Assembly: GCA_017858255.1 (NCBI GenBank) | Contig: JAFMBV010000005.1 | Location: 1 to 64,000, forward strand | DNA from: Bacteriovoracaceae bacterium | Lineage (GTDB): Bacteria; Bdellovibrionota; Bacteriovoracia; Bacteriovoracales; Bacteriovoracaceae | Length of the DNA: 64,000 nucleotides | Reading direction: 5' to 3' | Shown here: positions 15,914-21,258 of the stretch, piece after piece | Layout: every line of letters starts with the position of its first letter | How positions within the stretch are numbered: position 1 is the stretch's first letter | Made by a program: the position numbers and the translations under genes | Notes under the pieces: generated by a model | Databases searched by the model: none | What the model was told of the DNA's origin: nothing | Seen by the model: only the letters and a program-made list of their open reading frames with translations

Positions 15914-17029
15914 ATGAGTTCAAATATTAAAAATATTGTATTAGCTGCGACTTGTTCAGTATTAAGCTTACCAGCAACGGCCTATAATTTACTCAAAGAA
16001 ACCGATGTATCTGGTCAGCTTAGTCTTGGTGGAAACTATGTTGATAACAAACAAGTTGAAGCTCGTGTTTTTGGAATAACTGGTTATATAAACCTGAAGA
16101 CAACTCTACCCGCTTCTCTTGAGCTAGACGTGTCTACCGGTGTGACGATGGAGTCAGGCTCTAACAACTCTTTTATTGTTGATGAATATGCCCCACGTAG
16201 ACAGGTACGCCTCAAAAGGGCGTTTATTAAATGGAGTCCGCTTAGTTTCTTTCAATTTAAAGCAGGGGCCATTAATCAGCGTGATTACTTCGCTCCCTTA
16301 CTTTTAACTAGAACAGCTTTTCTTGGCGCACAGGAAGAATTATTTTACAAATTTAGTGAAAATCATAAAATCTTTTTCCGTATGCAACAGGCAATACCAA
16401 ATAACTTAAACCTGACTCAAAGAATTGGGATTGTAGAAGATGGTACGCCGAGCTTTCTTATGGAAACAGTAGGCCTAGACTTTGATGGTGATCTCTTCGC
16501 CTTTTACGCCAATGCGGGCCGCTGGAGCTATGACTCTCTTAGTACGGGAGCTGCATTTCAATCCCAATTCCTAGGAAATAGCGTGAGTGGTGGATCTCAG
16601 CTCAATAGTGATTTCTTATATCGATACTCTGGCTATACTGGATCCTCGGCCATAAGAACCCATTTTAGTGATGATTTTGGCATCAAGTTCTGGGGACAAT
16701 ATCTCTATAACGACAAGGCTCCAGAAACGCGAAACAAGGGATATGCTGTAAAAAGCTCTCTCATTCTTGGTAATTGGCAGCCATCTTTTTTAATGTTTAG
16801 AAATGAGTCTGATTCCTCACCGGCATTTTACAATAGTTCTTTTTTCTCCCATAACAATCATGAAGGTTACAGTGTTGAGTTAAAATACGCAGACCCTTAT
16901 GATAAAAATGACGATAAGGTGACGGCCTTTATCAACTACGTTGATTCTTCACCAATTAAATTCAATGCCTTTCAATCAGACACAAAGAAAGTAAATTTCT
17001 CCATAAAATTTCCATTTGAATTTAATTAA
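15914..17029 (+). CDS. Porin-like outer-membrane protein
   Basis: 371 residues with a signal peptide cut near ATA (VLSLPATA). The mature part is built of alternating hydrophobic/polar strands with many aromatic residues, for example ARVFGITGYINLKTTLPASLE and FRMQQAIPNN, and ends in phenylalanine-containing FPFEFN, consistent with a beta-barrel of 14-16 strands. No named family recognised. It diverges from the osmoprotectant importer, so it may supply that substrate through the outer membrane; this is inference from position only. Confidence 0.65.
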   Translation: MSSNIKNIVLAATCSVLSLPATAYNLLKETDVSGQLSLGGNYVDNKQVEARVFGITGYINLKTTLPASLELDVSTGVTMESGSNNSFIVDEYAPRRQVRLKRAFIKWSPLSFFQFKAGAINQRDYFAPLLLTRTAFLGAQEELFYKFSENHKIFFRMQQAIPNNLNLTQRIGIVEDGTPSFLMETVGLDFDGDLFAFYANAGRWSYDSLSTGAAFQSQFLGNSVSGGSQLNSDFLYRYSGYTGSSAIRTHFSDDFGIKFWGQYLYNDKAPETRNKGYAVKSSLILGNWQPSFLMFRNESDSSPAFYNSSFFSHNNHEGYSVELKYADPYDKNDDKVTAFINYVDSSPIKFNAFQSDTKKVNFSIKFPFEFN

Positions 17030-17114: not shown

Positions 17115-17141
17115 ATGAATTCAATAACTTACACTACTTTT

Positions 17142-17169
17142 AGTACCCATAATGTAAATTATGGGTCCA
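17142..17169 (+). other. dif: Probable dif-like Xer recombination site
   Basis: Left arm AGTACCCATAA, six-base centre TGTAAA, right arm TTATGGGTCCA. The inner halves CATAA-TGTA-A-TTATG are the conserved core of proteobacterial dif sites, with the standard 11-6-11 spacing. From remembered E. coli dif, about 18 of 28 positions agree. A perfect nine-base inverted repeat (ACCCATAAT / ATTATGGGT, 17145-17166) lies within it. It sits 35 bases upstream of a tyrosine recombinase gene with a complete active site, which supports the reading strongly. It could instead be a promoter operator. Confidence 0.65.
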
Positions 17170-17204
17170 AACACAGACTTTAAACTATTATCCAGGCGAT
17201 CCGG

Positions 17205-18272
17205 ATGTTTTACAAAGGTCCAAGTTCACAAGAGTTCTTCAAAGACTTCATGCTCTATCTTGAGCAGGTGAACCGATCACCTGCGACTCTAGATTCTTAT
17301 GGACGCGACCTAAAACTCTTCATCAACTGGTGTAATATAAACAAATTAACCCAGCTCTCCAAAGTGAGGCCTCAAGATATCTCTAATTATTTTGATTTTT
17401 TGAAATATCCATCATCACTTTCAAAGAGAGATACTTTTTTTTCGGCTCCCTATAATGTCACTCTTTTACAGGCGCCTTTAGCTGTAAATTCTAGAAAACG
17501 ACACTTATCAACAATTAAGAATTTCTACGCTTTCTTAAAGGACAAACACCCAAGAAAACACATTCTTCACTGGGGTTTTCGCCAAGGACCCGTGCTTGAG
17601 AAGCTCCATTCAATTCGCTTGAAAGACGAAGACCTATTGCACACACCACTTCTACGTGAAGTTCACTGGAAAAACATCCTAGAAGTTCCTCTCAAGGGCC
17701 AAGATCGTCTTCTTTTGTACCTTATGTATTGGGGTGGATTGCGTTTAAGTGAGGCCCGCACACTAAGAGTGAATCAATTAAATACTCATACCAATGTCCT
17801 TACCCTTTTTAGAAAAGGTGGCAAGCGACATGAGCTCTTTCTTCAAGATAAAGGTGTTTGCTGTATGCAGTGGGAGAATCTCACTTCAAATTGGCTTCAA
17901 AGTGAAAACTATAAAGATCAAGCTCCCTTTCTCTTTTCTGGAAGAATTCCGGGAAGAGCAATTTCAAGACGCGCTGCCTTTAAAAAAGTGAAGAAAATTT
18001 TCAAAAAGGCAGGAGTTCCTCAAAACCTAAGTCCCCACAGTCTAAGAAAGGCCTGTGCCACCCGCCTATATTACAAAACAAGGGATCTTTTATTTGTCAG
18101 AGACTACCTAGGCCATAGTGATGCCAAAGTTACTCAAACCTACATTGAAACCCAAGGCCTTGCCCTGGAAGTTTTAAATGAGAACACCTCGGAGAATATT
18201 GGCACATCTTCACCGCTAAGTTTAAAATATACAGGAATTAATAAACATTCACAGGAGTCTTATTATAATTAA
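17205..18272 (+). CDS. Tyrosine recombinase (Xer family)
   Basis: 355 residues. The N-terminal SAM-like DNA-binding domain (residues ~5-140) begins QEFFKDFMLYLEQVNRSPAT. The catalytic domain has all active residues: R180 (GLRLSEA), a lysine in the FRKGGKRHE hairpin, H278 and R281 (SPHSLRK), H304 (LGHSD) and nucleophile Y313 (QTYIE). At 355 residues it is longer than XerC/XerD (~300), similar to single-recombinase XerS and XerH, because of extra residues in the N-terminal and linker regions. Placed 35 bases after a dif-like site. Likely role: chromosome-dimer resolution; a mobile-element integrase is the alternative. Confidence 0.85.
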   Translation: MFYKGPSSQEFFKDFMLYLEQVNRSPATLDSYGRDLKLFINWCNINKLTQLSKVRPQDISNYFDFLKYPSSLSKRDTFFSAPYNVTLLQAPLAVNSRKRHLSTIKNFYAFLKDKHPRKHILHWGFRQGPVLEKLHSIRLKDEDLLHTPLLREVHWKNILEVPLKGQDRLLLYLMYWGGLRLSEARTLRVNQLNTHTNVLTLFRKGGKRHELFLQDKGVCCMQWENLTSNWLQSENYKDQAPFLFSGRIPGRAISRRAAFKKVKKIFKKAGVPQNLSPHSLRKACATRLYYKTRDLLFVRDYLGHSDAKVTQTYIETQGLALEVLNENTSENIGTSSPLSLKYTGINKHSQESYYN

Positions 18273-18993
18273 GATCATTCGAATCTCCCTCGCTGCAGTT
18301 CATGTTGTGCTTGTATCAACATTAGGTTTCTTTGGTTGCTTACTTCGGCCTTTTAACCCGGACAACACCTATTATCTAGGTCGGGCCCTCGCCTTTGGAG
18401 TGCTCCCAATAGGAGGCTTGAAGCCTTTTTTTATTGATAGCGATAAGTTTGATAACATCGAAGGACCGGCAGTAATTATATCTAATCACCAGGATAACTT
18501 TGACCTCTTTATTATAGGTGGAATTGTTCCCCATAATACAGTCAGTATGGGGAAAAAAATTATTCGTCTATTTCCCTTTTTTGGCCAAGCTTATTGGCTC
18601 TCAGGTCAAATTCTTATCGATCGGAAAAGAAAGAAAAAGGCCATGGGTACCATGAATCAAGCGGCAAAGCAGATGAAGAATAAAGGCATGAAAGTTTGGA
18701 TCATGCCAGAGGGAACAAGAAGTCGTGGAAAAGGCCTACTTCCTTTTAAAAAAGGGGCTTTTCATTTAGCAGTACAAACAGGTTTCCCCATCATTCCAGT
18801 AGTTATTAGTAGTTATGCTCAACAATTAAATATGAATAGCCTCAGTTACAATCCAGTCGTCGTAAAAGTCTATGACCCTATTAAAATTGAAGGTGAACTC
18901 AATGAAGTAAACGCCCTTAAGGACCATTGTGAAAAAGTTGTAAGAGAAGGTCTTGCTGAAGTTGATAAAATGGTTTTGGAAAAAAGAAAATAA
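18265..18993 (+). CDS. plsC: 1-acyl-sn-glycerol-3-phosphate acyltransferase
   Basis: Acylates lysophosphatidic acid to phosphatidic acid at the inner membrane. Seen: membrane helix at the N-terminus, NHQDNFD (HX4D catalytic motif), FFGQAYWLSGQILIDR, and PEGTRSRGKGLLPFKKGAFH. Alignment with E. coli PlsC from memory extends 14 residues upstream of the first GTG (18307), through IKIIRISLAAVHV. In that region only ATA (18265) or ATT (18262, 18268) can initiate, and AGGAG at 18253-18257 is correctly placed (seven bases from ATA). The GTG has no ribosome site. I therefore place the start at 18265, overlapping the recombinase stop. Transcription is coupled with the gene before and the one after (zero gap). 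Confidence 0.85.
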   Translation: MIKIIRISLAAVHVVLVSTLGFFGCLLRPFNPDNTYYLGRALAFGVLPIGGLKPFFIDSDKFDNIEGPAVIISNHQDNFDLFIIGGIVPHNTVSMGKKIIRLFPFFGQAYWLSGQILIDRKRKKKAMGTMNQAAKQMKNKGMKVWIMPEGTRSRGKGLLPFKKGAFHLAVQTGFPIIPVVISSYAQQLNMNSLSYNPVVVKVYDPIKIEGELNEVNALKDHCEKVVREGLAEVDKMVLEKRK

Positions 18994-21258
18994 ATGGAAA
19001 GAGTCTCACTAAAAAAAATTAAAGATATCCCCTTTTCAGGTCAAACCCTGGAGATGTCCTATGACAATAACATGGTCACTCACTTTAAAGGCGAAGGAGA
19101 TAATGCCTTTGCTTTTTCACTTGGCTATGCCCATGGAAAAGAAAGAGGCTTGCAGGTTGCACTTCTTCAAACAATCATTCGGGGTAAATTAAGTGAATGG
19201 ATAAAAAATGATCCTGAAACAATTGAAACCGATAGGTTCATGTTAAAAATGGGCTTTTATTATCAGGCAAGAAAAGAAGTCATTCACCTTAAAGAAAAGG
19301 ACCGAGAGTTCCTCGAGAGTTATTGTGAAGGGCTTAATAAAAGTAGAAAGGTTAATACTCCATGGGAAGTTAAATTATTTCCCTATCCAAAGAAACCATG
19401 GCAGCCAGCTGACTCGATTGCTTTAATGAAGGTAATGGCCTACCTAGGTCTCGCCCAAACCCAACAAGATTTCGAAAAATTCTTGGCGATGAGCTTGGCA
19501 CAGGGAATATCTCCAACTTACTTTAAAAGTTTATTACCAGGAATTGATCAGGAGGGCCTAGAGGATCTTATATTATGCCTTCAAAAAACAAATTTTGATC
19601 ACTCCCCCATTCCTCAAAATGAATACCTTATGGGCCTGCCCAAGTTAAAAAATTCAAATAATTGGGTTGTGGCGAATAAATTGAGCGAAACCAATACTCC
19701 TCTAATGGCCGCTGATCCACATCTCGAGATAAATCGACTGCCTTCCTTATGGTTTGAGTTTGTTTGGAACCAAAGAGACAACTATAAAACTGGTATAACT
19801 ATGCCAGGGGTCCCAGGTTTCATTATGGGTCGCAATAAGAACCTATCGTTCAGCTTCACTTATGGTTACATGGACACCATCGATTACTTCGTTGAAGAAA
19901 TCAAAGATGGAAAACTAAAGGAAGAAGACAACTGGGTGGGCTTAAGTTGTCGAGAAGAAGTCATTAGTCCTCTAAAGGGACCCAACGATAAAGTCAGGGT
20001 TTACGAAAGTGAAAAAGGACCCTTAGAGGTACCTGAAACATGCATTCTTAATAATAACCTCCTTAAGGATGGTTACTATCTAACTAGGTCATGGAGTGGT
20101 CATACAAGTGGCGGCGCCGAGGCCATCGAGTGCTTAAGGCTTTTAAGTAATTGTAGCAAAACACAAGAGGCCTGTGAGATTGTTAAGAATCTTTTCATGA
20201 GTGCTAACTGGTTATTTGCCGACAATGAAGGAAGTATTGGCTACCAACAGTCTGGCTATCTTCCAGATCGAAGCCACCAAGGCCTCTATCCACAAGCTGG
20301 TTGGGATAGGCAAAAGGCATGGAAAAAAGGCCATAAGAAAGAAAACCTTTTACAAAATTTAAACCCAGAGTGTGGTTATTTAATAACGGCAAACAACGAT
20401 GTATTTAAAGAATTTCTCGGTAAGCAAAATAGTATGAGTATTAATTTACCTCTGGCAGACTACCGTTATCAGCGAATTTTAAAACAGATTCAAAGCAAGG
20501 GGAAAACCTCTGTTGTTAAATGTAAAACTCTACAAAATGATGTTTATAGTGAACAAGCTTCACTCTTTATGGAAGTGCTTAAACCAATTATACCTGATAC
20601 ACCTTCAGGTAGAATTCTTTCCCAATGGGATTTTAAGTACGACAAGGAGAGTAGAGGCGCTTTTCTTTTTGAGAAATTTTTAAGCAATTGCTACGAAGGT
20701 CTTATTGCTCCTGTATGGGGCCCTCAAGCATGGCAAACAATGAGAGCTAATACTACCCTACTGACAGACTATTATGGGCTTTTTGATAGAATTCTTTTAA
20801 ATCCAGAACATCAAGATAGTCTGTGGTTTGACTCTTCAATAAATGATCAGGACATGGATATTGATGTCTTAAAGTTACGAAATGAATTTATTAAAGTTTG
20901 TCTTGATAAAACATTGACTCTTTTTCCCATGGCAAAATGCGAAAAATGGGGTGATGTTAATACCTTTATGTTCTCTCATATACTTTTTGGTAAAAATACA
21001 CCGTCATGGTTTCCATGTAACGAAGGACCACATTTTCTAAAAGGGTGTAGGGCAACTGTCCACCAAGGAAATATTTATCGCGACAGAGGAACACTCTCCA
21101 GTTTTGGCCCTTCATATCGAATGGTTACAGATATGGGAAATAACTGTGTTTTCAGTAGTATACCTGGTGGACCAAGCGACAGAATGTTTAAGAAGTCCTA
21201 CAAAAGCGAAATACCCAACTGGCTTGGTGGGCATTATAAGACACTTCTACCCTATTGA
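18994..21258 (+). CDS. Penicillin acylase family (N-terminal nucleophile) hydrolase
   Basis: 754 residues; the ATG directly follows the plsC stop. The family cleaves amide bonds (penicillins, acyl-homoserine lactones, N-acyl amino acids) after self-processing at an internal Ser. Here the nucleophile is probably S221 in LKNSNNWVVANK, preceded by the alpha-chain region (SLGYAHGKERGLQVALLQ). Downstream AADPHLEINRLPSLWFEF and PGVPGFIMGRNKNLSFSFTYGY are the usual beta-chain blocks. There is no signal peptide, unlike most periplasmic members, so it is probably cytoplasmic or peripheral. Substrate unknown; the plsC neighbour suggests acyl-lipid or N-acyl turnover. Confidence 0.88.
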   Translation: MERVSLKKIKDIPFSGQTLEMSYDNNMVTHFKGEGDNAFAFSLGYAHGKERGLQVALLQTIIRGKLSEWIKNDPETIETDRFMLKMGFYYQARKEVIHLKEKDREFLESYCEGLNKSRKVNTPWEVKLFPYPKKPWQPADSIALMKVMAYLGLAQTQQDFEKFLAMSLAQGISPTYFKSLLPGIDQEGLEDLILCLQKTNFDHSPIPQNEYLMGLPKLKNSNNWVVANKLSETNTPLMAADPHLEINRLPSLWFEFVWNQRDNYKTGITMPGVPGFIMGRNKNLSFSFTYGYMDTIDYFVEEIKDGKLKEEDNWVGLSCREEVISPLKGPNDKVRVYESEKGPLEVPETCILNNNLLKDGYYLTRSWSGHTSGGAEAIECLRLLSNCSKTQEACEIVKNLFMSANWLFADNEGSIGYQQSGYLPDRSHQGLYPQAGWDRQKAWKKGHKKENLLQNLNPECGYLITANNDVFKEFLGKQNSMSINLPLADYRYQRILKQIQSKGKTSVVKCKTLQNDVYSEQASLFMEVLKPIIPDTPSGRILSQWDFKYDKESRGAFLFEKFLSNCYEGLIAPVWGPQAWQTMRANTTLLTDYYGLFDRILLNPEHQDSLWFDSSINDQDMDIDVLKLRNEFIKVCLDKTLTLFPMAKCEKWGDVNTFMFSHILFGKNTPSWFPCNEGPHFLKGCRATVHQGNIYRDRGTLSSFGPSYRMVTDMGNNCVFSSIPGGPSDRMFKKSYKSEIPNWLGGHYKTLLPY

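Follow-up and report, generated by a model that had tools for sequence, protein, structure and literature searches.

In the 64,000-nucleotide stretch of a Bacteriovoracaceae genome analyzed here (the window), a dif-like site stands 35 bp before the ATG of a gene for a Xer-like tyrosine recombinase, and the question is whether the two are the dimer-resolution system of the chromosome, an additional one, or something else. An earlier note, made from the letters alone, had seen in them a linked pair with the layout of XerS/difSL and XerH/difH, and had also considered a terminus marker or an element that uses dif. Its placement of the 28-mer and of the 355-residue recombinase was borne out (Table 1). 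We used Xer1/site1 as working labels for the pair in the window and Xer2/dif2 and Xer3/site3 for two other pairs; genomes carry G numbers, with G000 being the source genome of the window.

Table 1. Positions of the Xer genes, their sites and the neighboring features (window positions unless a contig or locus is named)
Feature	Position	Strand	Remarks
Conserved upstream neighbor gene	15914..17029	+	No Pfam family; adjoins the acyltransferase gene in same-genus relatives without xer1
Conserved element, consensus ~TTTCATATACTTA	17116..17132	+	10-25 bp upstream of site1; putative function
site1, AGTACCCATAA-TGTAAA-TTATGGGTCCA	17142..17169	+	11-6-11 dif-like site of 28 bp; 9/11 arm positions complementary
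xer1, Xer-like tyrosine recombinase	17205..18272	+	355 aa; PF00589 7.4e-26, PF02899 3.2e-11
1-Acylglycerol-3-phosphate acyltransferase gene	18307..18993	+	PF01553; conserved downstream neighbor of xer1 in most genera
Penicillin-amidase-family gene	18994..21258	+	PF01804; syntenic marker of the locus
dif2 of the source genome, ACCCCCGATAATTACCATTATAGGGGGT	G000 contig C181:6293-6320 (locus L254:1501-1528)		Contig ends about 80 bp away; outside the window
Xer3 paralogue gene	L150:7016-7978 (G000 contig C172)	-	Private adjacent palindromic site
site3, ATAAGGGATAA-N6-TTATCCCTTAT	L150:8072-8099 (G000 contig C172)		Perfect 11-6-11 palindrome; 85-88 bp upstream of the Xer3 gene

Xer1 has the SAM-like N-domain and the R-K-H-R-H-Y catalytic domain that define Xer tyrosine recombinases in the broad sense. 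All six catalytic residues read by the earlier note were found (R180, K204, H278, R281, H304 and Y313), and because they are invariant in 34 of 34 aligned relatives, the enzyme appears to have been kept active. Xer1 scored well below the cut-offs of four subfamily models: the NCBIfam models gave 121.9 bits for XerD (cut-off 329.6), 114.3 for XerC (cut-off 335.2) and 81.4 for XerS (PRK05084, cut-off 267), and the archaeal XerA model gave 109 (cut-off 220). In the tree, Xer1 formed one clade on a long stem with support of 100, to which neither Xer2 nor the XerC/XerD-like proteins found elsewhere in the phylum belong. Structure prediction gave a model (mean pLDDT 82.5) that matched the folds of XerH, XerA and IntI4. 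By E-value the best matches were XerA and IntI4, and the TM-score against XerH on difH (5jjv), 0.64, was the top value among the Xer structures matched. The description of Xer1 as a single Xer-type recombinase did not hold, as 12 PF00589 genes, including several that are Xer-like, are present in the source genome.

Site1 has the general character of a chromosomal dif, being within the usual 28-31 bp, low in GC and intergenic, with dyad-symmetric arms. The CATAA...TTATG core emphasized in the earlier note is present, but the bare pattern with its six-base center is nothing special, occurring 8 times in the genome vs. 7 for the reversed control, which is chance level. The search for further copies that the note had proposed found the 22-bp palindrome of site1 (ACCCATAATGTAAATTATGGGT) only once in the 4.08-Mb genome at up to three mismatches, with no control matches. 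Across the family, the site is conserved upstream of xer1 far more often than chance would allow: an 11-6-11 site matching site1 lies just upstream of the gene at 31 of the 39 loci examined (family consensus nnnnC-n-TATAA-TATAAA-TTATA-n-Gnnnn), and a site score of at least 14 was reached at 20/39 xer1 loci vs. 3/358 control stretches. The pairing of recombinase and site therefore stands. At the xer1 loci of two Xer1 subclades, G012/G014/G146 and G025/G031, no such site was found. The outer arms vary between genera with their complementarity kept, and changes on both sides numbered 46 vs. 21.7 +/- 3.3 after shuffling and at most 13 in slid controls. Such covariation suggests that one type of subunit binds the left and the right half alike, which is more in keeping with a single recombinase than with XerC and XerD acting as a pair. 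In G008 (L093:10170 and L093:11278), xer1 has a second site1-like palindrome with a different center (TATAATCTAGATTATA) on its downstream side.

Alignment of 30 distinct sites with their flanks revealed the conserved element upstream of site1, which is similar to a site1 arm, to a -35 box, or to both; as a -35 box it would precede the TATAAT/CATAAT in the left arm by 18 bp. It contains TTGACT at this distance from the left-arm TATAAT in several genomes, and -35-like matches of at least five were found at 6 loci vs. 0.6 expected. Judged from these motifs, an overlap of site1 with the xer1 promoter is probable, or else the presence of a third half-site. Such an overlap would make autoregulation likely, with Xer1 probably controlling its own gene by binding site1, although the TATAAT and the upstream element might owe their conservation to transcription, as a promoter, and the conserved center may likewise serve it.

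Orthologues of xer1 are present as one copy per genome in 53/129 family genomes and 27/48 genera. Comparison of the neighborhood among relatives, also proposed in the earlier note, showed the same locus in many genera, in the order site, xer1, acyltransferase gene, often with the penicillin amidase gene and a KamA-type gene near. The acyltransferase gene stays beside xer1 in most genera, and no functional link is evident. In three genomes of the same genus (G004, G005, and G006), the flanking genes are kept and both xer1 and site1 are missing at the locus, and G011 and G018 have the same flanking block without gene and site. Gene and site are therefore present or absent together, for the most part at one fixed position. 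With xer1 not found in 5/7 genomes of its own genus and about half of the better genomes of the family, the module is dispensable; it is chromosomal and vertically inherited, and probably ancestral. The proposal of a mobile element using dif was rejected, given the single copy per genome, the mostly syntenic locus and the absence of visible element genes.

The 64-kb window has no clear GC-skew switch at 17.1 kb, and the source genome is in 207 contigs. In the near-complete chromosome of G008, the GC skew changes sign at about 1.7 Mb, opposite the contig start. A gene-strand-corrected change-point analysis placed the switch at 1.723 Mb in G008, 215 kb in G016, 222 kb in G013 and 187 kb in G020 (interval 176-190), which puts site1 at 36, 35, 34, and 23 kb from it, respectively (range about 22-36). 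This is near enough for a dif, with site1 lying within about 36 kb of the terminus in these four relatives, which represent four genera; site1 as the switch itself was disfavored in all of them (log-likelihood drop of 4 to 26). The idea that site1 is the terminus marker was not supported: another site, dif2, lies closer. Because the locus is largely syntenic, the four distances are not independent observations, and the nearness of site1 to the terminus may be only the conserved synteny of one locus.

The other site, dif2, was found by a symmetry-filtered comparison of intergenic 28-mers in the skew-mapped stretches. It is a palindromic 28-bp site, ACCCC-N2-ATAA-N6-TTAT-N2-GGGGT, represented by ACCCCATATAATTACCATTATATGGGGT in G008 and by close forms in G016 and G013, and its distance from the skew switch in these three genomes is 6-9 kb, compared with 34-36 kb for site1. 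Its pattern occurs without mismatch in 15 family genomes including the source genome, and the reversed control is not found in the family. It shares with site1 the ATAA-N6-TTAT core and the 11-6-11 layout, and its symmetric arms differ from those of site1 outside the core. In seven genomes where xer1 was not found (G002, G004, G005, G006, G011, G018, and G028), dif2 is kept, and its presence is unrelated to that of xer1 (p = 1). It follows instead one Xer2 clade, occurring with 12/13 members vs. 0/9 others (Fisher p = 2e-5, relatedness not corrected for). Nearly every family genome has genes of the Xer2 type; in six genomes their distance from dif2 is 1-36 kb, with the G020 site a candidate only. 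No consistent adjacent site was seen upstream of Xer2 genes, the exceptions being a perfect palindrome in G012 and the G020 candidate 1 kb away. The gene at window position 484 has a homologue that is separated from dif2 by 250 bp in G006 and by about 3 kb in G005, so the dif2 of the source species should lie shortly before position 1 of the window, about 17-20 kb away from site1. This dif2 is the probable main chromosomal dif of the source species, served by Xer2. A xerC/xerD pair with a better dif elsewhere, named in the earlier note as counter-evidence to its own reading, is largely what dif2 provides, although Xer2 is not a canonical XerC/XerD pair. Further dif2-like 28-mers with other centers occur in genomes that already have dif2 (G005:C140:6611, G022:C101:157394), perhaps marking another replicon or an integrated element.

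A third pair was recognized in the source genome. Site3 is upstream of the Xer3 gene in G000, G001, and G004, and with one mismatch in G005; since contig C172 carries isocitrate dehydrogenase, it is probably chromosomal. Separately, the center CTTCCA is common to palindromes with quite different arms, namely L115 upstream of xer2 (G012), G020:C3:181595 and L267:1096 (G003), which stand near genes of the Xer2/Xer3 clade. In these sites the arm specificity looks to be changing, with the center kept.

Considering the separate and better-placed dif2 with its Xer2, Xer1/site1 looks like an accessory rather than the main system, and we regard it, with somewhat better than even confidence, as a single-recombinase module, most likely an accessory second resolution site in the terminus region. 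In the model that we propose, a single protein, Xer1, would recognize the left and the right 11-bp arm of the near-palindromic site beside its gene; four Xer1 subunits would bring together two site1 copies carried by sister chromosomes or by a chromosome dimer, with Tyr313 carrying out strand exchange where the arms meet the 6-bp center, as in XerH/difH or XerS/difSL. The module would lie inside the terminus region, 17-32 kb from dif2 as the probable main dif served by Xer2, and would act as a second resolution site. Binding of Xer1 at site1, which overlaps the promoter-like element, may also control xer1. Binding, cleavage, dimer resolution and autoregulation by Xer1 are predicted activities. 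Tentatively, and with distinctly less confidence, one may see Xer1/site1 and Xer2/dif2 as two parallel single-recombinase dimer-resolution systems in one terminus, with a third Xer/site pair elsewhere, so that Xer specificities would have multiplied and one could replace another.

A rival view of the locus, that of the earlier note, is that site1 is the dif of the chromosome and Xer1 its sole dimer-resolution recombinase. The modular layout and the proximity to the terminus favor it, as does a profile of seven known dif sequences, a guide only, against which site1 scored highest within the 400 kb of G008 that were examined (25 bits; the runner-up had 15.4). The distance of 22-36 kb is no bar either, as the functional dif of L. 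pneumophila lies 35-43 kb from the skew switch (PMC9765430). All of this is outweighed by dif2, which is present in the source genome too, is nearer to the switch in G008, G016, and G013, persists without xer1 and tracks the Xer2 clade, and by the Xer2-like genes of nearly every family genome, so we consider the view very unlikely.

That site1 is solely an operator or promoter, with Xer1 repressing its own gene and recombining elsewhere or together with Xer2 at dif2, would account for the TATAAT within the left arm, the promoter-like element upstream and their conserved spacing. It would leave aside the 11-6-11 layout and core shared with dif2, and the existence of a private site beside the third Xer gene as well; moreover, because the symmetric arms of dif2 are unlike those of site1 and dif2 is kept without xer1, Xer1 is not an obligate partner at dif2. 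We hold this explanation to be unlikely. A domesticated or decaying integrase beside an old attachment site, with no present role, seems quite unlikely as well: its patchy retention with repeated absence, the PHROG integrase profiles that match Xer1, and the mobility genes near about a quarter of proteobacterial dif sites (PMC2731167) would suit such an origin, yet the active site is invariant across many genera, the arms of the site co-vary, and the gene is single-copy at a mostly syntenic locus without element genes.

The accessory module that we favor resembles several known systems without belonging to them. Like XerH/difH of epsilon-proteobacteria, it has a recombinase of similar length by a near-palindromic site near the terminus (PMC2731167), but the identity is 17% on the structural alignment, and XerH bacteria have a single Xer, whereas here another Xer and dif coexist. 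In XerS/difSL of streptococci and lactococci, a 356-aa recombinase lies directly beside its site as one module (PMC5357621); difSL, however, is 31 bp long with an 11-bp center, in contrast to the 28 bp and 6-bp center of site1. XerL/dif of Legionellales shares the single recombinase, the dyad-symmetric arms and a comparable distance from the skew switch in L. pneumophila, but loss of xerL or of its dif impairs growth, and no second system of this type has been described there, whereas site1 appears accessory and adjoins its gene (PMC9765430). With XerCD/dif, site1 has in common the 11-6-11 layout and CATAA/TTATG core, and an FtsK that includes the gamma domain was found in the source genome and in 53/58 genomes searched; site1 differs in its symmetric arms, which lack the outer part of the XerD arm (TTATGTTAAAT), and Xer1 in its scores below the XerC and XerD cut-offs. 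Xer1/site1 likely works like XerS/difSL, XerH/difH and XerL/dif. It shares the immediate adjacency of gene and site with the XerS and XerH modules, but Xer1 is not the only Xer in the genome and site1 is not a retained resolution site, being absent together with xer1 at the locus in G004-G006, G011, and G018 where dif2 is kept, and it is therefore not a member of these systems.

To our knowledge, only a few lineages have Xer systems with a single recombinase, and no second recombinase of the kind accompanies those that have been described. In the literature searched, we found no paper describing dif sites or their recombinases in Bacteriovoracaceae, and the present analysis provides candidates of both for these predatory bacteria. 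In the present case, two or more private Xer/site pairs seem to be maintained around the terminus of one chromosome. Furthermore, the loss of gene and site is visible in close relatives, which offers a natural setting for how dimer-resolution systems get replaced and how new site specificities arise.
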